The position numbers and the translations under genes were made by a program. A stretch of 10,662 nt of DNA from Solirubrobacterales bacterium. GTDB taxonomy: Bacteria; Actinomycetota; Thermoleophilia; Solirubrobacterales; Solirubrobacteraceae. The stretch's first letter is position 1; each line of letters begins with the position of its first letter. The notes below the pieces were generated by a model. That model ran no database searches, had not been told where the DNA came from, and was given only the letters and a program-made list of their open reading frames with translations. Shown piece after piece: positions 373-10,662 of the stretch. The stretch covers positions 1 to 10,662 of the forward strand of contig JAOPZU010000533.1 in NCBI GenBank assembly GCA_025963955.1, written 5' to 3'.

Positions 373-2976
373 GTGAACTCTTCGGCGAGCCGTGTGGACG
401 CAGTGGTGATCGGAGCCGGGTTCGCCGGCCTGTACGCCGTGCACCGGCTCCGGGACACGCTCGGCCTGCGGGTCCAAGGGCTTGAGGCCGGCTCGGGCCC
501 AGGCGGGACGTGGTACTGGAACCGGTACCCGGGGGCGCGCTGCGACATCGAGAGCGTCAACTACTCGTACTCCTTCTCGGAGGAGCTGCAGCAGGAGTGG
601 CGCTGGTCCGAGCGTTTCGCGGCCCAGCCCGAGATCCTCGCGTACCTCGAGCACGTCGCCGACCGCTTCGACCTGCGCCGCGACTTCCGCTTCGACGCCC
701 GGGTGACGTCCACCGTCTGGGACGACGCGTCCGGGACCTGGGCGGTGACGACGGAGGGCGGCTCCACCTACACCGCCCGGTTCGTCCTCGGCGCGGTCGG
801 CGCGCTGTCGACGCCGAAGACGCTCGAGTTCCCGGGCCTCGAGACGTTCGCCGGGCCCGTCCTGTCCACGCACGACTGGCCGCGCGAGCCCGTCAGCCTC
901 GCCGGGAAGCGCGTCGGAGTCATCGGCACGGGGTCGAGCGGCATCCAGGTGATCCCCAAGCTCGCAGAAGAGGCCGCGCACCTCACCGTCTTCCAGCGCA
1001 CGCCGAACTTCGCGGCGCCACTGTGCAACCGCCCTACCGACCCCGACGAGGAACAGCGCGTCAAGGCGTCCTACGCCGAGCTGCGGGCGCAGTCCCGCGC
1101 CGCGTTCCTCGGCTGCCCGTATGAGCCGCCGGCGGCCCCGTCTGCGCTCATGGACACCCCCGAGCGGCGGCGGGAGGTCTACGACCGGTATTACGACACG
1201 GGCGGCTTCCGACTCGTCGTCTCGACCTACGGGGATCTCATCTTCAACGAGCAATCAAACGCGACGATCTCCGACTACCTCCGCGAACGCATCCGCGATC
1301 GCGTCGAGGACCCTGAGGTCGCGGAGCTGCTGTGCCCGACCGATCATCCGTACGCGACCAAGCGCGCGCCCTTCGAGACGAACTACTTCGAGACGTTCAA
1401 TCGCCCGAACGTGGAGCTCGTGAACCTCCGTGCGGCGCCGATACAGGAGGTCACCGAACGCGGGGTCCGGACGGCGGACGGTGAGCACGAGCTCGACGTC
1501 CTCGTGCTCGCGACCGGGTTCGATGCATTCACCGGGTCGCTCACGAACCTCGGGATCGTCGGCCGCGACGGCCTCGACCTGCGGGACGCCTGGGCCGACG
1601 GGCCGCACACCTACCTCGGCTTCATGGCCCCCGGCTTCCCGAACCTCTTCACGATCACGGGGCCGCAGAGCCCGATCTCGCTCTACAACAACCCGCTCGC
1701 GATCGAGGACCACGTCGAGCTGGCCGCCGACGCCATCAAGGCGCTCCTCGACGCCGGGCAGAGCACGCTCGAGGTCACCCCCGAGGCGGCCGAGCGCTGG
1801 GGCGAGGTCGTGGCGGGCGTCGCCGACCAGACGCTGCTCCCCAGGGCGAACTCGTGGTACATGGGCGCCAACGTGGAGGGCAAGCCGCGCCAGTGCATGC
1901 TCTTCATCGGCGGTGCGCCGCTCTACCGGCTCCTCTGCGACGTCGTCGTCGGGTCCGGGTGGGCGGGGTTCGCACGCGACGGGGCGGGCACCGATGTCCC
2001 CGACATGCTGCGCCTGGACCCGGCCGTGCTCTTCGTGGTGGGCGGGATGCTCGCCCAGGGCGCGCCTCCGCTGGAGGACCTCTCCGTGGAGGAGACGCGC
2101 GAGCTGCTCGAGACGTTCGTCGGCCTGCAGCTGCCGCCACCGGACGTCACCACCGTCGTCAAGACGACCTACCCCGGGTCGGGCGGGCCGCAGCCGGCGA
2201 CGGTCTATGTCCCCGACGGTGAGGCGCCCCTGCCCGTCGTGCTCTACCTGCACCCCGGGGGCTGGATCGGCGGCAGCACCAACATCGTCGACTCCGCCTG
2301 CCGCATGCTCGCGACGGACCTCGGAGCGGTGGTGGTCGCGGCCGGGTACCGGCTGGCGCCCGAGCACCCGTTCCCGGCCGCGATCGACGACGTCACCGCC
2401 GCTCTGCACTGGGTGGCGGACACCGTCGCCGAGCACGGCGGGGATCCGGCCCGCATCGCGATCGCCGGGGAGAGCGCCGGCGGCAACCTCGCGGCGGCGG
2501 CGGCCCTCCGCGCCCGCGACGAAGGCGGTCCGGCGCTGGTGGCCCAGGCGCTCATCACGCCACCGATGGACCCACGCGCGCAGACCCCCTCCCGCGAGCA
2601 GTGGGCCCAGGCCCCGATCCTGACGGTCGCCGCGCTCGACGGGATGTGGGCGGCCTACCTCGGCGATCCCGCGAACGCCGACTCCCCCCTCGCGGCCCCC
2701 GGGCGCGCGGCGAGCCTGGAGGGGCTGCCGCCGGCGCTCGTGATCACCGTGGAGGCGGACCCCTCCCGCGACGAGGCTGAGGCCTATGGCGCGGCACTCG
2801 CGGCGGCTGGGGTGCCCACCGAGGTCCGCCGCTTCGACGGGCTCGTCCACGCCACCTACAGCATGTCCGCGGTCGTCCCCCGTGCGGCGGAGATCCATAC
2901 GGCCCTCGTCGGCTTCCTCGGTACACGTCTCGCGCGAGGAGGGGCAGCCGACGCCTCCCCGGCGACCGCGGTCTGA
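373..2976 (+). CDS. Baeyer-Villiger-type flavin monooxygenase fused to an HSL-family alpha/beta-hydrolase (esterase)
   Basis: This is an 867-residue two-domain enzyme. The N-terminal domain (about 8-536) is a class B flavoprotein monooxygenase: FAD-binding GAGFAG (14-19), the Baeyer-Villiger fingerprint GGTWYWNRYPGARCD (44-58), NADPH-binding GTGSSG (185-190), a KR pair (330-331) where family members carry the catalytic Arg, ATG (380-382), and SWYMGAN (494-500) near the domain end. The other fingerprint, F-x-G-x3-H-x3-W, is imperfect (F159, G161, W169, but His at 167 instead of 165). From about 545 to 855 lies a family IV esterase: cap helices, oxyanion HPGG (627-630), nucleophile S701 in GESAGG, and probable D796 and H826 completing the triad. 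The expected chemistry is NADPH/O2-dependent ketone-to-ester or lactone conversion, then hydrolysis. Start is GTG with GGAG at 357-360, a rather long 12-base spacer; V8 (GTG 394) is an alternative. No signal peptide is seen. Substrate is unknown. Confidence 0.88.
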   Translation: MNSSASRVDAVVIGAGFAGLYAVHRLRDTLGLRVQGLEAGSGPGGTWYWNRYPGARCDIESVNYSYSFSEELQQEWRWSERFAAQPEILAYLEHVADRFDLRRDFRFDARVTSTVWDDASGTWAVTTEGGSTYTARFVLGAVGALSTPKTLEFPGLETFAGPVLSTHDWPREPVSLAGKRVGVIGTGSSGIQVIPKLAEEAAHLTVFQRTPNFAAPLCNRPTDPDEEQRVKASYAELRAQSRAAFLGCPYEPPAAPSALMDTPERRREVYDRYYDTGGFRLVVSTYGDLIFNEQSNATISDYLRERIRDRVEDPEVAELLCPTDHPYATKRAPFETNYFETFNRPNVELVNLRAAPIQEVTERGVRTADGEHELDVLVLATGFDAFTGSLTNLGIVGRDGLDLRDAWADGPHTYLGFMAPGFPNLFTITGPQSPISLYNNPLAIEDHVELAADAIKALLDAGQSTLEVTPEAAERWGEVVAGVADQTLLPRANSWYMGANVEGKPRQCMLFIGGAPLYRLLCDVVVGSGWAGFARDGAGTDVPDMLRLDPAVLFVVGGMLAQGAPPLEDLSVEETRELLETFVGLQLPPPDVTTVVKTTYPGSGGPQPATVYVPDGEAPLPVVLYLHPGGWIGGSTNIVDSACRMLATDLGAVVVAAGYRLAPEHPFPAAIDDVTAALHWVADTVAEHGGDPARIAIAGESAGGNLAAAAALRARDEGGPALVAQALITPPMDPRAQTPSREQWAQAPILTVAALDGMWAAYLGDPANADSPLAAPGRAASLEGLPPALVITVEADPSRDEAEAYGAALAAAGVPTEVRRFDGLVHATYSMSAVVPRAAEIHTALVGFLGTRLARGGAADASPATAV

Positions 2977-3040: not shown

Positions 3041-4810
3041 TCAGCTCGACGGGACGCCGAGGCCCTCGAGGTCGCTCAGCCTGCGGTAGAGCGTCGACCT
3101 CGAGATGCCCAGCTGCGCCGCCGCCCGTGCCTTGTTCCCGCCTGCCGCACGGACGGCCTCGGCGATCGTCTCGAGCTCGACGCGCTCGAGGTGGCCGAGG
3201 GTGCGCGTCAAGAGCCTGGGCGCGAGCTCCGGCAGATCGGCCGGGCGCACGACCGACCCGGGCGCCGCACGGCAGCCGGCGATGACGGTCGAGCGCAGCT
3301 GCCGGGCGTTGTCGGGCCAGTCGAACGCCCGCAGGACCCGCAGGGTCTCCGGAGCGAGCTCACGGACCCCCCGTGCCGCCTCCGCGAGGACGGCCGAGGC
3401 GATGTCGTCGACGTCCTCTGGGCGATCGCGCAGCGGAGGTACGGTCAGGTGCCCGAGGAAGGCGCTCTCGAGCCGGGCGGGGGTCGCCGGGCTTCGGGAG
3501 GACGTGGCGAGTGTCGCGATCACGAGACCCCCGTTCGGCGCCGGCGCCGCGAGCCGGTCGCACAGCGCCTGGCAGCCGGCGTCGCGGAGCTGCTCGAGGT
3601 GCAGGAGCAGGACTGCCGCGTGCGGATCGGCCAGGTCCTTGGCGACGAGGTGCAGCCAGTACGACTGGGTGCCCAGTGCGCAGCTGACGGCGTCGTGGAC
3701 GGCAAGGCGCGTGTGGGGCGCGGCGACGGTGTGTAGCGCTCGGGCGAGCCGTTGCTTGCCAACCCCTGGCTCGCCCGCGATGAGGATCGCGGATGATCGG
3801 CGTGCGGCGGTAAGCGCGCGGCCGAGCAGGTCCTCTGTCGCGAGGGACCGCCCCGGGAAGGCCCGCCGCAGGACGCCCAGTTCGCCGAGGGACGGGCTTC
3901 GACGCGCCAGCGTCTCTACGCGCTTCGCGGTCTGGAGGGAGACGATCGCGCCGACCAGACCGCTGGGTCCCTCCACGGCGTGCGCGTGTCCTCGCACGCC
4001 CGGCGCGTCCGGGAGGGCGCCGTCGCCGTCCGGCCGGGCGAGCAGCCGCTGCGTCCACTCCCACGCCTGGTGCTGGTCAAGGCCGACGAGGAGGTCGGAC
4101 GCGGACGGGTTGGCGATGATCATTGCGCGGTTGACCGCGAACATCGGGCGCCGTGGACCGCGTCGCTCAAGGCGCAGGTAGGCGTCGAGGAGCAGTCGGT
4201 CGCGACGCGAGTCACCGGCGCCCAGGCGCTCGCCGATCTCGTCGGCGATCCGGGTGACGAGTGGCAGCATGAGAGGACTGGTGTGCTCGACGAGGCAGCT
4301 GAGGTCGATCACCCCCTCGATCCGACGAGTCACGGGGTGCCGTACTGGCGCGGCCATGCACGCCCACCGCTGCAGCCGGGGGCTCAGGTGCTCCGGGCCG
4401 GACACGGCGACTGGCCGGCCCTCCTCCACGACGGCGCCGAGCGCGTTCGTGCCGAGGGTCTGCTCGCCGAACGAGACCCCGGGGATGCCGTCCCCGTCGT
4501 CCACCGCGTCCTGCGTGCGGGCACCCCGCGTCCAGCGCGCAAGGACGCGGGCGTCCGGGTCGGTGAGCAGCACGGCGAGCGGGAGGTCCCCGAGCTGCTC
4601 CAGCAGCCGCTCGGCGACGGGGCCCGCGGCCCGGACGATCGCACCGTCGGGATCCGGCACCCCCGGCCGGCGCGGGCGCTCGTCGAACCCCATGCCGGAC
4701 GTGAGCGACCGCTGCCAGGACCGCGCGACGACGGAGCGCACCGAGGGATCGATGCGCCCGCTGGCGAGAAACGCCTCGCGTGCCTGATGCTGGTCCCGGT
4801 CCTCGGCCAT
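3041..4810 (-). CDS. AcoR-like GAF/AAA/Fis transcriptional regulator lacking the sigma-54 contact loop
   Basis: This 589-residue regulator has three parts. Residues about 65-200 form a GAF-type sensor with AcoR-like signatures (GTNALG 120-125, VAVSGPEHLSP 134-144, GVIDLS 166-171). Residues about 325-510 are a reduced AAA+ domain with an intact Walker A GEPGVGK (346-352), a PPLRDRPED segment (458-466) and WPDNARQL (498-505). Residues about 541-581 are a Fis-type helix-turn-helix (NKARAAAQLGISRSTLYRRL). The GAFTGA loop is absent: only about 50 residues separate Walker A from the Walker B region, where LLLHLEQL (401-408) replaces the usual acidic pair. Such proteins in actinobacteria probably act with housekeeping sigma factors. 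The ATG is preceded by TGAGG (4820-4816, minus strand) with a five-base spacer; that SD includes the stop codon of the dioxygenase, seven bases upstream. It is therefore probably cotranscribed with, and a regulator of, the operon. The ligand is unknown. Confidence 0.85.
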   Translation of the reverse strand: MAEDRDQHQAREAFLASGRIDPSVRSVVARSWQRSLTSGMGFDERPRRPGVPDPDGAIVRAAGPVAERLLEQLGDLPLAVLLTDPDARVLARWTRGARTQDAVDDGDGIPGVSFGEQTLGTNALGAVVEEGRPVAVSGPEHLSPRLQRWACMAAPVRHPVTRRIEGVIDLSCLVEHTSPLMLPLVTRIADEIGERLGAGDSRRDRLLLDAYLRLERRGPRRPMFAVNRAMIIANPSASDLLVGLDQHQAWEWTQRLLARPDGDGALPDAPGVRGHAHAVEGPSGLVGAIVSLQTAKRVETLARRSPSLGELGVLRRAFPGRSLATEDLLGRALTAARRSSAILIAGEPGVGKQRLARALHTVAAPHTRLAVHDAVSCALGTQSYWLHLVAKDLADPHAAVLLLHLEQLRDAGCQALCDRLAAPAPNGGLVIATLATSSRSPATPARLESAFLGHLTVPPLRDRPEDVDDIASAVLAEAARGVRELAPETLRVLRAFDWPDNARQLRSTVIAGCRAAPGSVVRPADLPELAPRLLTRTLGHLERVELETIAEAVRAAGGNKARAAAQLGISRSTLYRRLSDLEGLGVPSS

Positions 4811-4817
4811 CGCTACC

Positions 4818-5834
4818 TCACGAGGCCGCCGCCCGGGTGTCAGCTGCGGGGGCCGCGGCCGCCGGCCCGACCGGCGGCGTCCCGATCTCGAAGAAGGACA
4901 TCGGGATGGGGCCGTAGACGGAGGTCAGCCAGGTCATCTCCGTGTCAGCCTCCCAGGTCACGGGCTCCCAGTCGGGCTCGTGGATGAGATAGCCCACGTC
5001 CCCGAACAGCTCCACACGGTTGCCCCCCGGCTCCCAGACATAGAGGAACGTCGCCTGGCTGACGCCGTGCTTGCCGGGACCGGCCTCGATCTCGTACCCG
5101 GCTTCCCGGAGCACCTCCGCCGCGTCGTTGCAGTGCTGGGGCACGCCGTACCAATAACAGACGTGATGGAAGCGGCCGCGCAGCTCGGCGGGATCGCGCA
5201 TGATCGCCAGTTCGTGGACGGACGGGCTCACGCTCATCCAGTTTCCAAGCTCGACCGCATCGGGGGAACCGTCGCTCACGATGCGCTCGCGCACCCGAAA
5301 GCCCAGTTGCTCCTGCATGAACTCGCGACACTCCACCGGGTCGGCGGCCATGAGGTTGACGTGGTCTAGCCGGCGGACCGGGACGCCGTGGCGCGGCCGC
5401 CGCTGCGGACGGTTCTTCAGCGGCGTGCGCTCCTCCGGCGCCGGTGTCCAGCGCTCGACGTCCCAGAAGATCTCCATGAGGTGATCGTCGGGGGTGTTGA
5501 ACTGGTAGGCCGCACCGTGCCCGGTGGCGCCGTCGATCCAGCCGCGGCCGAGCCCGGTGGACTCGATCGCGGCCACGCGGCGCTCCAGCGCCGCCGGGGA
5601 CTGCGCCCGCCAGGCGACGTGTCCTACCCCGGGCTCGGGCGCCTCCGTGATGAGCAGGCTGCTGTGGTAGCTCTCCTCGTAGGCGCGGAGGTGCGCGGTC
5701 TGGCCCTCCCGGGCAGTGACCTCCATGCCGAGGTAATCCACGAAGAACTCCTCGGTGGCGGCCGGATCGGGGCTGAGGATCTCGACGTGGGCCAGCTGCG
5801 CCACGTCGAAGATCGCCTCCTGATGCGCGGCCAT
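4818..5834 (-). CDS. Type I extradiol (catechol 2,3-type) ring-cleavage dioxygenase, VOC family
   Basis: This 338-residue protein consists of two VOC (glyoxalase-fold) modules, about 11-127 and 152-282. The second module carries the iron site: H158 (RRLDHVNL), H224 (RFHHVCYW) and E275 (NRVELF). The stretch from G254 to E275 (G-x-H, LY at 264-265, EPGG at 268-271, final E275) fits the classical extradiol dioxygenase signature. The N-terminal module keeps LAHVEI (14-19) but lacks the full ligand set, as is usual for the family. The expected reaction is O2-dependent meta cleavage of a catechol in the cytoplasm. The exact catechol cannot be read from sequence; monocyclic, homoprotocatechuate-like or steroid-derived catechols are all possible. 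An Ala/Pro-rich tail (about 320-338) makes it slightly longer than typical members. The ATG overlaps the upstream flavoprotein stop (TGATG), indicating translational coupling; the SD (GAGG, complement of 5845-5848) is weak. An in-frame extension to 6665 has no start signal and overlaps the flavoprotein, so it was not used. Confidence 0.87.
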
Positions 5835-7534
5835 CACGCCACCGCCTCGGTCGTGAGCTCGCGGACGGGCTCCGCGACGGCGCTGAGCGCGGCGAGGTAG
5901 CCGAACGCCATGGCGGGACCGATCGTGGCTCCCCCGGCGAAGTACGCCTTGCCCGAGACGGAGGCCACGCAGTTGCCCGCACCATAGAGGCCCGGGATCG
6001 GGGAGCCGGAGGCGTCGAGGACCTGCGCCTTGTCGTTTGTCCGCGGGCCGCCCTTCGTGTCGAGGGTCGCCGGCGCCAGGATCGTCGCGTGGTACGGACC
6101 GCTGCCAGAGAGCGGATGGATCAGCGGGCTTGCCTCGTTGCCGGGCCGTGCCTCTCCCAGGGCCGCCTGGAAGAACACGGAGATCGGTGCGCTCCCCCGA
6201 TCGAAGTCGGGGTCCTGGCCCGCCGCAGCGTGCTCGTTGAACCGTGCGACCGAACCCTTCAGCGCTTCGTCGAACCCGTCGTCCAGGCGGTAGCCGCCCG
6301 TCTCGCCGCGCAGCTCGTGCAGGCGCACGCGCACCGCGGCGGCGAGCTCCTCGAGCGTGTCGCCGTGCAGGACGTGGCCGTCGTCGTCCCCGGCCGGCGC
6401 AATGGGATTGCCCCACATCGTGCCCTGCCAGCGGTCCTGGCACTCCTGGTCCCAGATCATCACCGGGCACAGGTTCGGGTACTCCGCACGGCTCGGATCC
6501 CAGGTCCACATCGTCTGCGTGATCTCGTTGTACTGGATCTTCTCGTCGACGAACCGGCGCCCGTAGCGGTTGACCATGATCATCGAGTCGCCGGCCGGCT
6601 CGAACATGAGCCAGTTGTCCGGTGCGTTGCGCAGGCCGCGCTCCAGCGGTACCGGGCCCAGCCACGGATAGCTCATGCCATAGAGCGGCGCGCCGACGGC
6701 GGAGGCCATCGGGATGAAGTCCCCGGTGTTGCTCGGGACCGAGCAGCTCCCGAACACCGGTCCGCCAAGGAAGGCGCGCCGCATCTCCGGGTTCTGCGCG
6801 AACCCGCCGCTGGCGAAGACCACCGCGCGACGGGCACGGACCCGCACCTTGCCGGCCGGTCCGTCCGCGACCACCCCGACGACCTCGTCGGCGTCGTTGA
6901 GGACGAGGGCGCAGACGCGGTGCCCGCAGCGCACGTCGACGCCGAGCTCGGCCCCTCGGCTCGAGAGCTGGCCGATGAAGTCCTCGCCCTCTCCGGGATC
7001 TTCGCCGTTGGCGCCCAGCGGCATCAGCACCCGGCCGGCTGGCGTGCGGTTCTCGGGCAGCTGCGCGTAGTAATCGGGGAGCTCGGCGGGGTGGAACAGC
7101 TTGAGCGCCCCGGCCTGCTCCAGCTCGTCCACGGCGGCGGACGCATGGTCGTAGAAGGCCTCGAGGAGCGCGAAGTCCTCTCTAGGGAGTCCGAAGCTCT
7201 CTGCAGCAGCGTCCGCGTCGTAGAGCTCCGGCCGGGCGAGGCGACACATATAGCGCAGCGCGTCCTCCCGGCGGTCGTCGATGCCGGCTTCGCGCAAGAA
7301 GCGGTTGTTCGGGATCCAGAACCATGCGCCCGACTTGCGGGTCGTGCCGCCGATCGCGTCGGCCTTCTCGAGCATCAGCACCTCGGCGTCCCGCGTCACG
7401 GCCGTGATCGCCGCTGTCCAGCCGGCCGCTCCGGAGCCGACGATGACGACGTCGGTCTCCTCGTCGAACCCGTCGCTACCACTCGCCCGCTGCACGGGTA
7501 GACGGCTTGCGGGCTCATGGCTTGTGCCAGACAT
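5834..7534 (-). CDS. FAD-dependent dehydrogenase of the 3-ketosteroid delta1-dehydrogenase (KstD)/fumarate reductase family
   Basis: This 566-residue flavoprotein is the first gene of the operon. It has an N-terminal Rossmann motif ([11 protein letters not shown] 28-38) with the FAD-ribose acid E56 in LEK, a [10 protein letters not shown] segment (62-71), FASGGFAQN (240-248) and a C-terminal FAD segment, [20 protein letters not shown] (516-535), continuing into [11 protein letters not shown]. In characterised KstD enzymes a Tyr and a Gly in this last motif serve catalysis; Y531 and G535 fall at those places. KGGPRTN (494-500) is also typical. The family dehydrogenates C1-C2 of 3-ketosteroids, but relatives act on other cyclic enones or reduce fumarate-like substrates, so 'KstD-like' is safer than a substrate name. 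The expected role is desaturation of a ring ketone before aromatisation and cleavage by the downstream dioxygenase. The ATG has a strong SD (GAGGAG, complement of 7540-7545) five bases away. The 25 or so residues before the Rossmann strand look disordered. Confidence 0.83.
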
Positions 7535-7543
7535 GTGTTCTCC

Positions 7544-7568
7544 TCGGCGTGTGAACGTGACACGCCGA
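7544..7568. promoter_or_regulatory. Perfect 9-bp inverted repeat in the operon leader
   Basis: TCGGCGTGT (7544-7552) and ACACGCCGA (7560-7568) are exact complements separated by seven bases. In the minus-strand transcript the repeat lies 10-34 bases before the ATG of the flavoprotein, and its inner edge overlaps the first two bases of the GAGGAG ribosome binding site. It could be a DNA operator or an RNA hairpin reducing ribosome access. The sequence does not decide between these. Confidence 0.5.
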
Positions 7569-7573
7569 CCGTA
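7561..7573 (-). promoter_or_regulatory. Possible -10 element of the catabolic operon promoter
   Basis: On the minus strand TACGGT (complement of 7568-7573) fits the actinobacterial -10 pattern TANNNT, which would place the start of transcription near 7561. There is no recognisable -35 at the proper distance. The palindrome at 7594-7614 would then be centred near -43, suggesting an activator-dependent promoter. Weak motif, low certainty. Confidence 0.25.
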
Positions 7574-7593
7574 ATCCCGTCTGTGCTCCTCGG

Positions 7594-7614
7594 GGTGTCG
7601 CAGTTTGCGACACC
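7594..7614. promoter_or_regulatory. Perfect 21-bp palindromic operator candidate upstream of the catabolic operon
   Basis: GGTGTCGCA (7594-7602) and TGCGACACC (7606-7614) are exact complements separated by GTT. The site lies 60-80 bases before the start codon of the first gene of the operon and has the symmetry expected for a dimeric helix-turn-helix protein. The Fis-type regulator encoded as the last gene of the same operon is the obvious candidate binder. Its identity as the binding protein is inferred; the symmetry is seen directly. Confidence 0.6.
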
Positions 7615-7978
7615 TGGGATCGGCCTGCGCATCTCGATCCGGCGGCCTCTCCGGTCCACGTGGATCGGCTCCTCACTCGACGCCGCCCACCTCAGCGTCG
7701 CCCGCACCTGCCCCGCCGACCCCGCCGGCTGCCAGAACCACCGCTCACTCGCCTACCGCTCGCCACCCAGCGGATCCGCACCAGTCCCCGACCCAAGGTG
7801 CTCGACGGCTTCACCGCCCTCGACGCCACCCACACGCTCGAAGTGCGGCAAACCACCACCGCGGTCGGCGAGCCGCTCTCCCACACGCTGGTGTCCGCCG
7901 GACCCATCTGCGCGAGAGCGGAGGAGGGATGGCACGAGCGGCACGCCGCGACGGGCATCTCGATGTCGACACATCCTC
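7615..7978. other. Region without a recognisable gene; short coding-like stretch at about 7798-7935
   Basis: These 364 bases separate the divergent operon start from the secreted-protein gene. No known domain, tRNA or repeat was seen. From about 7798 to 7935 one plus-strand frame (reading VLDGFTALDATHTLEVRQTT near its start) has a very high G/C content at third codon positions, unlike the other two frames, and looks like a real protein fragment. A second coding-like piece in another frame lies at about 7677-7760 (DAAHLSVARTCPADPAGCQN). No start codon with a ribosome binding site joins them. They could be remains of a frameshifted, decayed gene of unknown family. Confidence 0.25.
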
Positions 7979-8758
7979 ATGGCGCCGCCATACTGCGGCG
8001 GTGCCTCTCCGACCGCGTGTTTCGCCTTGGTCTGCTCCGCCTTGATCGCGAGCGGTGGGGTGCTCGCGACTGCGACATCGGCCACCGCCGCGAGCTCGTG
8101 CCAGCACGGAGGTGTCACCAACCGCTCAGCCCAAGGAGTGCGGCTCTACACGATCAAGAGCCTTGTCAAAGGCAAGGCACGGGTCCGGTTGCTCGCCTGC
8201 CCGAAGGGCGCGAAGATCGGAAAGACGCTTGCGTACGGGCCCCCCGGCCTCGTCAGTTTCGGGGCGTTTCACAGCAGCGGACGCCACGTCGGCTTTGAGG
8301 TCACCGGAGTCCAATCGGCAGCAGGCCGGGCCGGAGCGGGCACGAACTACAACATCGGCTGGGTCGACGCCCGCACCGGCCAAGTGCGCATGAACTTCTG
8401 GTTCGTGCACCCCATCCGGCCGCCTCACCGCTACGCAATCGACGCGAAGAGCGGCGCCCTGGCCCTCCTGATCGGCACGCTCGGAAAGCCCGAGACGCTC
8501 CTCGTCGCGTCATACGACTCAGCCACCAACGATTTTGCTGGGTCTGACGAGCACCAGCTCGACGGCGACTGGAACTCGGTCTACGTCGCGTCGCACACTG
8601 GCACACTCCAGCCGACCTCCATACGCTTTGTCGACGGGCACCTCTCCTACACCACCGCGGACGGCACCGCCCTCGTCGATCCGGCCACCGGAGACCCCGT
8701 CCCAGCAGCACTCCGTGGCGCGCGCAAAGCCCCGATCACAGCCCGCGCCGTCGGGTAG
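7979..8758 (+). CDS. Secreted protein of unknown function
   Basis: The reading frame stays open well upstream to 7517, but the part before 7979 is Arg/Pro/Ser-rich noise overlapping the divergent flavoprotein gene. I chose the ATG at 7979 because it directly precedes a signal-peptide-like segment: a hydrophobic run at about residues 13-30, then ATATSATAAS with probable Sec cleavage after A37. The resulting product is 259 residues. No good ribosome binding site precedes this ATG (a GGAGGAGGG run lies about 50 bases upstream), and the N-terminus lacks the usual positive charges, so the start is uncertain. The mature part has two early cysteines (C41, C74) that could form a disulfide, then beta-rich sequence with many Gly, Asp and Thr residues and a C-terminal YTTADGTALVDPATGD segment. 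It resembles uncharacterised secreted proteins of actinobacteria in general style. No catalytic motif is recognised. It is probably unrelated to the catabolic operon, which is transcribed divergently. Confidence 0.6.
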   Translation: MAPPYCGGASPTACFALVCSALIASGGVLATATSATAASSCQHGGVTNRSAQGVRLYTIKSLVKGKARVRLLACPKGAKIGKTLAYGPPGLVSFGAFHSSGRHVGFEVTGVQSAAGRAGAGTNYNIGWVDARTGQVRMNFWFVHPIRPPHRYAIDAKSGALALLIGTLGKPETLLVASYDSATNDFAGSDEHQLDGDWNSVYVASHTGTLQPTSIRFVDGHLSYTTADGTALVDPATGDPVPAALRGARKAPITARAVG

Positions 8759-9455: not shown

Positions 9456-9501
9456 GGGATGAGTGCCAGGCCAACGACGTGAGCTTGCGGGGCTGTGCAG
9501 G

Positions 9502-10662
9502 ATGGTCCGGCGGAGCGTTGTCGGGGTCGTCCTTCTGGGTGTGCTCGGCTGCCCGGTCGCTTCGCTCGCCGCACCGCCCGCGCTGACTGCTTCGGAGGTC
9601 GGCGAGCCGGCCGATGGTGGAGCGGTGTTCCGGTTCCCGCAGGCCGTCGCGTTCTCGCCGGGAGGAGGCTCGGTCTTCGTCGGTGACCAGTACAGCGCCC
9701 GCGTGCAGGCGTTCGGGCGCGACGGCTCCCCACGCTGGTCGGCGGGCAGCCGTGCCACGCGGCGTGAGGTCGGGCGGCTGGGCGTCATCGGGGGTGTGGC
9801 CACCGACCGCAGCGGCCACTTGTATGTGCTCGACGCCGAGAACGATCGGGTCCAGATCCTCTCCCAGGCCGACGGCCGCCCGCTCGGCGCGTTCGGCGAC
9901 GCGAGCGTCTTCGATCTGCTGGCGGGCACCGCGGCGACCGGCTCGGGGATCAGCGCCAGCGGTGTCGCCGTCGCCCAACCGTCGGCGACGGCGCCGCCGA
10001 TCGTCTACGTGGCTGACCAGGGCAACGACCGCGTCGCGCGCTTCGTCCTTGACCCGGCCACGCTCAGGCCGTCCGGGCCGCCGACGTTCAGTCCGTCGTC
10101 GCTCGGGTTGTCCTACCCGCAGGGCCTGACCCTCAACGGGGACGGCTCCCGCCTCTACGTGGCCGATGACGACAACCACCGGATCGTGGTGCTGGACCCC
10201 GTCGGCCTCACGCTGCTCGCGCAGGTCGGCAGCTTCGGTACCGGGCTCGGGCAGCTGCAGAACCCGTATGACGTCGCGGTGGACGGGCACGACCCCGCGC
10301 AGCTCTACGTGGCCGACAACCTGAACAACCGCGTCGACGTCTTCGACGCGAACAGCCTCGCGCCGTTGGGAGCCTTCGGGCACACCGGCTACGGACCGGG
10401 CCTCGGGAACATGGAGATCGTCCGGGCGGTCGGCGCGATCGGAGACGACCCGGCCGGGGGTGTGGCGACCACGGACACCGCCAACAACCGTGTACAGCTG
10501 TTCGACCCCACGGGCAACGTCACCGCGGCCTGGGGACTGGCCGGCCGCGGACCCGGGTATGTCACGCGGCCCGGAGGCGCTGACTTCGCTCCCGACGGAT
10601 CGATCGCCGTTGCCGACAGCTTCGATCAACGGGTCGAGCGTTTTGGCCCCGACGGCACCTAC
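9502..10662 (+). CDS. Secreted NHL-repeat beta-propeller protein (3' end outside window)
   Basis: This frame begins at ATG 9502 and stays open for 387 codons to the right edge. The N-terminus is a signal sequence: MVRR, a hydrophobic run of Val/Leu/Gly, then ASLAAPP with probable cleavage after residue 24. VLGC (14-17) is a poor lipobox, so a lipoprotein is possible but less likely. The rest consists of about seven NHL-type repeats, each with the pattern 'P-gvav---g-lyVaD--n-Rv-vfd': GDQYSARVQAF, VLDAENDRVQIL, VADQGNDRVARF, VADDDNHRIVVL, VADNLNNRVDVF, TTDTANNRVQLF and VADSFDQRVERF. Such repeats fold into propeller blades; a six-bladed ring would already be exceeded, so the protein may hold more than one propeller or a longer array. 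NHL domains mostly mediate binding; some are enzymes, but no catalytic residues can be assigned here. GCGGGG (9487-9492) is a possible ribosome binding site. It probably acts outside the membrane. No functional link with the catabolic genes is visible. Confidence 0.82.
   Translation, partial: MVRRSVVGVVLLGVLGCPVASLAAPPALTASEVGEPADGGAVFRFPQAVAFSPGGGSVFVGDQYSARVQAFGRDGSPRWSAGSRATRREVGRLGVIGGVATDRSGHLYVLDAENDRVQILSQADGRPLGAFGDASVFDLLAGTAATGSGISASGVAVAQPSATAPPIVYVADQGNDRVARFVLDPATLRPSGPPTFSPSSLGLSYPQGLTLNGDGSRLYVADDDNHRIVVLDPVGLTLLAQVGSFGTGLGQLQNPYDVAVDGHDPAQLYVADNLNNRVDVFDANSLAPLGAFGHTGYGPGLGNMEIVRAVGAIGDDPAGGVATTDTANNRVQLFDPTGNVTAAWGLAGRGPGYVTRPGGADFAPDGSIAVADSFDQRVERFGPDGTY

Follow-up and report, generated by a model that had tools for sequence, protein, structure and literature searches.

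A single gene in a contig from a Solirubrobacterales bacterium (GenBank assembly GCA_025963955.1, contig JAOPZU010000533.1) encodes a protein in which a Baeyer-Villiger monooxygenase (BVMO)-like half is followed almost immediately by an esterase of the hormone-sensitive-lipase (HSL) type. We consider it probable that this protein is a single-chain, two-step ketone-cleaving enzyme, in which oxygenation is followed by ester hydrolysis. BVMOs and esterases act successively in several degradation pathways, and in the literature consulted the two steps are normally carried out by separate enzymes. A single chain found in nature, which evolution seems to have arrived at more than once, would be a ready-made cascade catalyst, and it offers a test case for whether joining consecutive enzymes gives channelling. 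In this report, "the window" is the whole stretch of DNA that was analysed, which is the entire 10,662-base source contig (C489 in our numbering).

The gene consists of one uninterrupted forward-strand frame that is open from nucleotide 364, starts with GTG at 373 and has zero internal stops. The features on which the argument depends are given below, with residue conservation counted in an alignment of 121 rows (120 distinct, because P0001 and P0002 are identical) drawn from the database search described later.

373..2976, + strand: fused gene, class B monooxygenase (BVMO-like) then HSL-type esterase, 867 residues, GTG start
379..1980, + strand: phenylacetone/steroid monooxygenase-like half, residues 3-536
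412..429, + strand: first Rossmann motif GAGFAG, residues 14-19, FAD site; G14, G16 and G19 in 121/121 rows
544..546, + strand: Asp58, aligned counterpart of Asp66 of phenylacetone monooxygenase (PAMO); 121/121 rows
847..882, + strand: degenerate BVMO fingerprint FAGPVLSTHDWP, residues 159-170, with Ser165 (865-867) at the expected His
1363..1365, + strand: Arg331, aligned counterpart of PAMO Arg337; 121/121 rows
1981..1995, + strand: junction, residues 537-541, nearly all that lies between both domains as aligned to solved structures
1996..2934, + strand: HSL-type esterase half, residues 542-854
2251..2262, + strand: oxyanion-hole motif HPGG, residues 627-630; H627, G629 and G630 in 121/121 rows
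2467..2484, + strand: nucleophile elbow GESAGG, with Ser701 at 2473-2475; Ser in 120/121 rows
2758..2760, + strand: catalytic Asp796; 121/121 rows
2848..2850, + strand: catalytic His826; 120/121 rows

Chains of PAMO and steroid monooxygenase (STMO) match residues 6-534 (E about 1e-166), and the esterase Est8 matches residues 537-835 (E=1e-56), its structural alignment beginning at residue 542. A preliminary description of the window had proposed a monooxygenase and an esterase in a single frame, and this architecture is confirmed by the open frame, by the motifs, and by the scores of both halves, which are far above chance. All of the motifs that it named are present (GAGFAG at 14-19, GGTWYWNRYPG at 44-54, GTGSSG at 185-190, HPGG at 627-630, GESAGG at 699-704, D796 and H826). 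Its placement of a linker at about residues 537-600 was wrong. In an AlphaFold2 model of the fused protein (mean predicted local distance difference test score (pLDDT) 94.8, predicted template-modelling score (pTM) 0.92), means of ten-residue blocks from residue 531 to 600 are 93-97 pLDDT; this region is predicted to form confidently folded esterase helices, so that about five residues would separate the domains. The confidence of the model suggests a fixed domain arrangement.

The monooxygenase half has the PAMO/CHMO fold and the two GxGxxG Rossmann motifs of Type I BVMOs (GAGFAG and GTGSSG). Asp66 and Arg337 of PAMO have a catalytic role in its active site, and both are retained here, as Asp58 and Arg331; titles of Protein Data Bank (PDB) entries among the PAMO-type matches include mutants of both. 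Two motifs are described for this family: [A/G]GxWxxxx[F/Y]P[G/M]xxxD for Type I BVMOs (PMC12724174, PMC9836352) and the BVMO signature FxGxxxHxxxW[P/D] (PMC12724174, PMC10682829). The former is present as GGTWYWNRYPGARCD at residues 44-58. The preliminary description had called this half a full class B monooxygenase, which is borne out by the Rossmann sites and by GGTWYWNRYPG, but not by the second signature, in which the classical His is replaced. The half is a BVMO-like domain that probably works like a BVMO, and not a strict member of the family by the fingerprint motif.

The C-terminal half belongs to Pfam family Abhydrolase_3 (PF07859; E=2.5e-67, 227.1 bits against a cut-off of 25). It has the Ser-Asp-His triad (S701, D796, H826) and an oxyanion motif of the HGG(G) type, HPGG, with Gly at both later positions; Pro occupies the second position in 28/121 rows. 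Its score with the LipP1 equivalog model (NF058653) is 297.1 bits, below the curated cut-off of 350. Asp58, Arg331, His627, Gly629, Gly630 and Asp796 are invariant across the 121 rows. An inactive hydrolase domain, which the preliminary description had named as a finding that would count against it, was probed through the predicted catalytic residues alone, and these are conserved.

The fusion is not rare. A protein database search that admitted candidates down to 0.55 of the query length gave 7,975 hits, of which the best 120 (the window protein included) are all full-length fusions in the same order; hits beyond these may include stand-alone BVMOs. The other 119 are 53-80% identical to the window protein over 89-100% of the query and are 846-893 residues long. 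All of the best 120 are annotated with both FMO-like and Abhydrolase_3 domains, although their names differ, with NCBI entries mostly citing one half and JGI entries citing both. Their sources include Solirubrobacterales, Pseudonocardia, Mycobacterium, Rhodococcus, Streptomyces, Nevskia, Panacagrimonas, Xanthomonas and Bradyrhizobium. The earlier ranking of this protein as the most unusual in the window is therefore not supported. The window's class was sampled with 299 genomes: 17, counting the window's own, match at E<=1e-100, and full-length matches are confined to its own genome, which has two. In the window's family, 2/146 genomes have a full-length match. At the level of the phylum, 44 of 396 genomes drawn match at E<=1e-120, nine of them at full length. 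Matches are also found in 132 plasmid records, six of which cover >=80% of the query: the Bradyrhizobium CB82 record has a fusion, and the remaining five have two separate frames side by side. Features of fused loci outside the window that are discussed below are as follows.

L009 (G000:C252), 10533-13214: second fused copy in the window's own genome, 66% identity
L060, 7887-10556, and L058, 7648-10182: fusions in reverse order, with the esterase before the BVMO, of Tepidicaulis marinus and of an alphaproteobacterial metagenome-assembled genome (MAG), respectively
L120, 1793-7366: phenol-hydroxylase-like and catechol ortho-cleavage genes upstream of the fused gene of Bradyrhizobium sp. CB82

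These homologues bear on whether the frame is an artefact of assembly or a frame error that joined two genes, which the preliminary description had also listed against itself. The assembly to which the window belongs is incomplete (643 contigs, 68% complete). However, the 119 other hits among the best 120 keep the architecture, the order and a similar length, the same genome has its second fused copy, and a single-contig genome of the same genus (G371) has another, with 62% identity. Together these full-length relatives rule out such an error, to which we assign next to no probability.

To classify the arrangements of the two halves, loci were scanned with profiles of each half. Besides 80 named loci, the set took in others from the window's own genome and from its class. 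The named loci are the best 80 of 540 by likeness to the fusion alignment, and fused rows are therefore over-represented; adjacency, in turn, is under-counted, because many rows scored as alone stop at a contig end or have little flanking sequence. We dropped L009 (which repeats L002, L003 and L007), BVMO hits below 450 bits or spanning fewer than 450 residues, and esterase rows below 110 bits or spanning fewer than 200 residues, the last of which removed two fused rows. L038, which is cut by the locus end, and L047, which matches part of the esterase profile within a 1685-residue frame, were both counted as fused. The fused protein of G371 is identical to P0012 (recorded as Paraconexibacter antarcticus) over 529 columns, and the BVMO half of L111 is the same as that of P0012. 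P0006 probably repeats the second own-genome copy, and further duplicates are possible among the 124 rows of clade I (defined below).

The 106 BVMO halves that were kept comprise 27 in BVMO-esterase fusions, 2 in esterase-BVMO fusions, 11 in adjacent BVMO-esterase pairs, 6 in adjacent esterase-BVMO pairs, and 60 in neither arrangement. Both reverse-order fusions are alphaproteobacterial. A co-oriented esterase gene is thus adjacent in 17/77 unfused loci. Since the 3.36 Mb of the window's own genome contain only six PF07859 matches, two of which are the fused genes, adjacency by chance should, by rough inference, be rare.

In a tree of 129 BVMO rows (the 106 halves and 23 database fusions), the same-order fusions fall in three places that are forced apart by starred branches, and the fused state needs 4 changes. 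Clade I consists of the fusions that group with the window protein. Clade II includes fusions from Bradyrhizobium, Chelatococcus, Pseudonocardia lacus, Mycobacterium intermedium and others, and clade III includes those of Neobacillus, Paenibacillus, Mesobacillus and a Bacillaceae MAG. The esterase tree (78 rows) has the same three groups, again separated by starred branches, and places the reverse-order fusions with the esterases of esterase-first pairs. A 57-row IQ-TREE analysis (20 fused) agrees with the three groups, and with these rows a single clade of all same-order fusions is rejected for the BVMO half (approximately unbiased (AU) test, p=0.000258). When 22 extra loci were considered, 8 further fusions joined clade II and 2 joined clade I (one identical to P0012), and the number of changes was still 4.

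From these trees, fusion appears to have arisen repeatedly; a single early fusion with many later splits would be less parsimonious. Adjacent pairs are found beside fused clades: that of Sphingomonas Root720 is next to clade I, and that of Cupriavidus is next to clade III. In 5/11 adjacent BVMO-esterase pairs (L016, L023, L028, L035 and L041), the two frames are in register with a single stop codon between them; this proportion is not above the one-in-three chance expectation, and such cases show that the step to fusion can be short. The preliminary description held that the two halves act in sequence, and this view gains support from same-order fusion in three clades, reverse-order fusion in a fourth group, and adjacency in the unfused loci. 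Because fusion recurs in both orders and relatives keep the genes adjacent, the comparison of sequences strongly suggests that the halves catalyse consecutive steps, from a ketone to an ester or lactone and then to its hydrolysis products.

The surroundings of other fused genes are varied, and no conserved operon was found around the fusion among the selected neighbours scanned. The gene calls were seeded with the fused gene, and they were not used for the Nocardia farcinica locus, where they fell on the wrong strand, or for the window's dioxygenase gene, which they missed. The second own-genome copy adjoins a gene for a short-chain dehydrogenase/reductase (SDR). Further along C252 are genes for a luciferase-like monooxygenase, a BVMO-like protein, a second SDR, a stand-alone HSL esterase and a zinc alcohol dehydrogenase. 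This set fits a route in which an alcohol is converted to a ketone and the ketone to an ester, which is then split into acid and alcohol. An AMP-binding enzyme is also encoded at this locus. Clade I, which holds the second own-genome copy, has two further fusions with an adjoining SDR gene, those of Mycobacterium aquaticum and (on the opposite strand) Mycobacterium sp. AT1; in a Nevskiaceae genome of this clade an SDR gene lies upstream of the fusion. P450 genes occur within about 6 kb of the fusion in M. aquaticum, G371 and Bradyrhizobium CB82; the G371 locus also has a molybdopterin oxidoreductase and an integrase nearby. For clades II and III, the few neighbours scanned belong to unrelated families or to none.

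On plasmid pCB82_1 of Bradyrhizobium sp. CB82, genes for an HpaB-type hydroxylase, a flavin reductase, an intradiol dioxygenase, a muconate cycloisomerase and catC lie within about 8 kb of the fusion. Because these functions resemble those induced together with acpAB in strain GD02, a Rhodococcus, the plasmid's fused protein would best be read, by analogy, as a single-chain AcpAB. An HpaB-type gene is also found elsewhere in the window's own genome (C260, 313 bits).

Within the window, the fused gene is followed by three genes on the opposite strand.

3041..4810, - strand: DhaR-like Fis-type regulator, running towards the fused gene, with the two stops 64 bases apart
4818..5834, - strand: catechol 2,3-dioxygenase homologue; TIGR03211 309.3 bits, 3lm4/7q2a 306 bits
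5834..7534, - strand: FAD enzyme close to cyclohexanone dehydrogenase 8am3 (474 bits)

The dioxygenase gene, whose start overlaps the stop of the FAD-enzyme gene (TGATG), is called a homologue only, because its score falls below the TIGR03211 equivalog cut-off of 320.2 bits. The FAD enzyme matches 8am3 over 541 residues, whereas the next listed molecule, a 3-oxosteroid dehydrogenase, scores 148 bits. In an alignment counted by hand, it keeps Y195, Y376, Y570, G574, W113 and C305 of 8am3, the first four of which are named as catalytic residues of that enzyme (PMC10966990). Because homologues of cyclohexanone dehydrogenase and catechol 2,3-dioxygenase are nearby, the neighbouring genes would favour cyclic or aryl ketones as the substrate class of the fused enzyme, although the set is convergent with its gene. 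Plasmid relatives of the FAD enzyme occur in other ring-degradation settings, with no fused gene in the stretch shown. The AAA+ part of the DhaR-like regulator matches Sigma54_activat weakly (21.8 bits, residues 321-367), which suggests that its activator domain may be degenerate. Scanning for promoters and terminators yielded a single site of each kind, where 0.4 and 1.7, respectively, would be expected. The window also contains a 413-residue frame with no Pfam match (7517-8758, + strand), which may be a real gene in part, and a gene for an NHL-repeat protein of the beta-propeller type (9463-10662, + strand) that runs off the contig end.

In the mechanism that we infer, the N-terminal FAD/NADPH domain, like PAMO and STMO, would insert oxygen next to the carbonyl of a ketone, likely a cyclic or aryl one, to give an ester or lactone. 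The C-terminal esterase (Ser701-Asp796-His826, with oxyanion motif HPGG) would then hydrolyse this product to an acid plus an alcohol or phenol. Side-by-side domains with almost no linker would hold the two steps close together and at a 1:1 ratio. The preliminary description further suggested that hydrolysis pulls a reversible or toxic intermediate forward. Reversibility is a weak rationale, as a Baeyer-Villiger oxidation that uses O2 and NADPH is in effect irreversible; removal of a reactive or inhibitory ester is possible.

Several observations weigh against this two-step interpretation. Between the Rossmann motifs, FAGPVLSTHDWP departs from FxGxxxHxxxW[P/D] in having Ser165 for His, and the His is present in 30/124 clade I fusions (Arg in 40, Ala in 19) and in 0/18 clade II fusions. 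It is thus mostly absent, and therefore Baeyer-Villiger activity of the fused members is not inferable from the motif. The genomic contexts differ between fused loci, the adjacency rule applied finds no neighbouring esterase for 60/106 BVMO halves, and the regulator, dioxygenase and FAD-enzyme genes of the window do not form one operon with the fused gene. The literature searches turned up no biochemical record for the fused members. The departure from the fingerprint also lends itself to a different explanation, in which the oxygenase half has changed its chemistry (to N- or S-oxygenation, or to NADPH oxidase activity) and the esterase acts on another substrate of the same pathway. In agreement with it, His is kept in 9/52 fused rows as compared with 65/77 unfused rows. 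By class, His occurs in 54/60 stand-alone BVMOs, 9/11 adjacent BVMO-esterase pairs, 4/4 clade III fusions, 2/6 esterase-first pairs and 0/2 reverse fusions. We considered whether fusion leads to loss of the His, and did not accept it as the cause. The raw association is strong, but comparisons of independent pairs separated by starred branches show nothing (fused/unfused, 3 pairs, median p 1; linked/unlinked, 10 pairs, median p 0.5). The pattern tracks lineage. Given these pairs and the 12 unfused rows that also lack His, the loss may well predate fusion. Since the association is not independent of descent, since every fused row examined keeps the PAMO-type Asp58 and Arg331, and since identity to PAMO and STMO is about 49-51%, we regard changed chemistry as improbable. 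In practical terms, the His is missing in 43/52 fused rows examined, and surveys that require the motif would miss the fused enzymes.

Even less probable, in our view, is a reversed order of action, in which the esterase would first hydrolyse an ester to release a hydroxy- or keto-compound, on which the oxygenase would then act. The esterase-first fusions (2) and pairs (6) among the 106 rows count in its favour and against the proposed order, whereas the separate pairs described in papers (AcpAB, BpfCD and SadD/SadAB) are all a BVMO followed by a hydrolase. A more serious contender, to which we give somewhat less than an even chance, is that fusion gives only co-expression and 1:1 stoichiometry, with no kinetic coupling between the active sites. 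Relatives indeed manage with adjacent separate genes, but repeated fusion and the predicted near-linkerless arrangement hint, without proof, at something more. Oxygenation followed by hydrolysis within one chain is our preferred reading. An extended form of it is rather doubtful: that these proteins are a rigid bifunctional ketone-cleaving class with at least four origins and both domain orders, which passes the ester or lactone on unreleased, and in which the His was lost as NADPH or domain dynamics changed to suit the attached esterase.

Comparison with known enzymes places each half near solved structures. PAMO (1w4x and variants) and STMO (4ap3) have chains of 542-549 residues with the fingerprint His in place, whereas the window protein has Ser165 and a C-terminal esterase. 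Est8 (4ypv), Est2 (1evq) and the LipP1 family have in common with the esterase half the fold, the GxSxG elbow, the Asp, the His and the oxyanion motif; in contrast, the solved HSL-type esterases are about 310-350 residues long with no oxygenase, and the window protein scores below the LipP1 equivalog cut-off. The neighbouring FAD enzyme resembles cyclohexanone dehydrogenase of Alicycliphilus denitrificans (8am3) in the identity of the named residues, and differs in that its gene is coupled to that of a catechol 2,3-dioxygenase homologue; its activity is predicted.

Our searches of the open-licence literature found no paper describing a BVMO-esterase fusion, although we do not claim absence from print. 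The accessible part of a paper on BVMO evolution (PMC4498894) does not contain the words "fusion" or "fused", and the "naturally fused" enzyme met in the texts consulted is a styrene monooxygenase. Separate proteins that carry out the proposed reaction sequence are described. BpfC and then BpfD, a BVMO and a hydrolase, were demonstrated with purified enzymes (PMC12724174), and SadD followed by SadA/B, again a BVMO and then a hydrolase, acts on 2-ketones (PMC12753306). We liken these systems to the window protein by their sequence of reactions. In strain GD02, acpA (PAMO-like) and acpB (esterase) were the most induced genes on acetophenone, alongside pheAB and catABC, and a conversion of acetophenone to phenyl acetate and then to phenol plus acetate was proposed for AcpA and AcpB from transcripts (PMC9618137). 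AcpA and AcpB thus pair a PAMO-like BVMO with an esterase, as the window protein does, but they are encoded by two separate genes.

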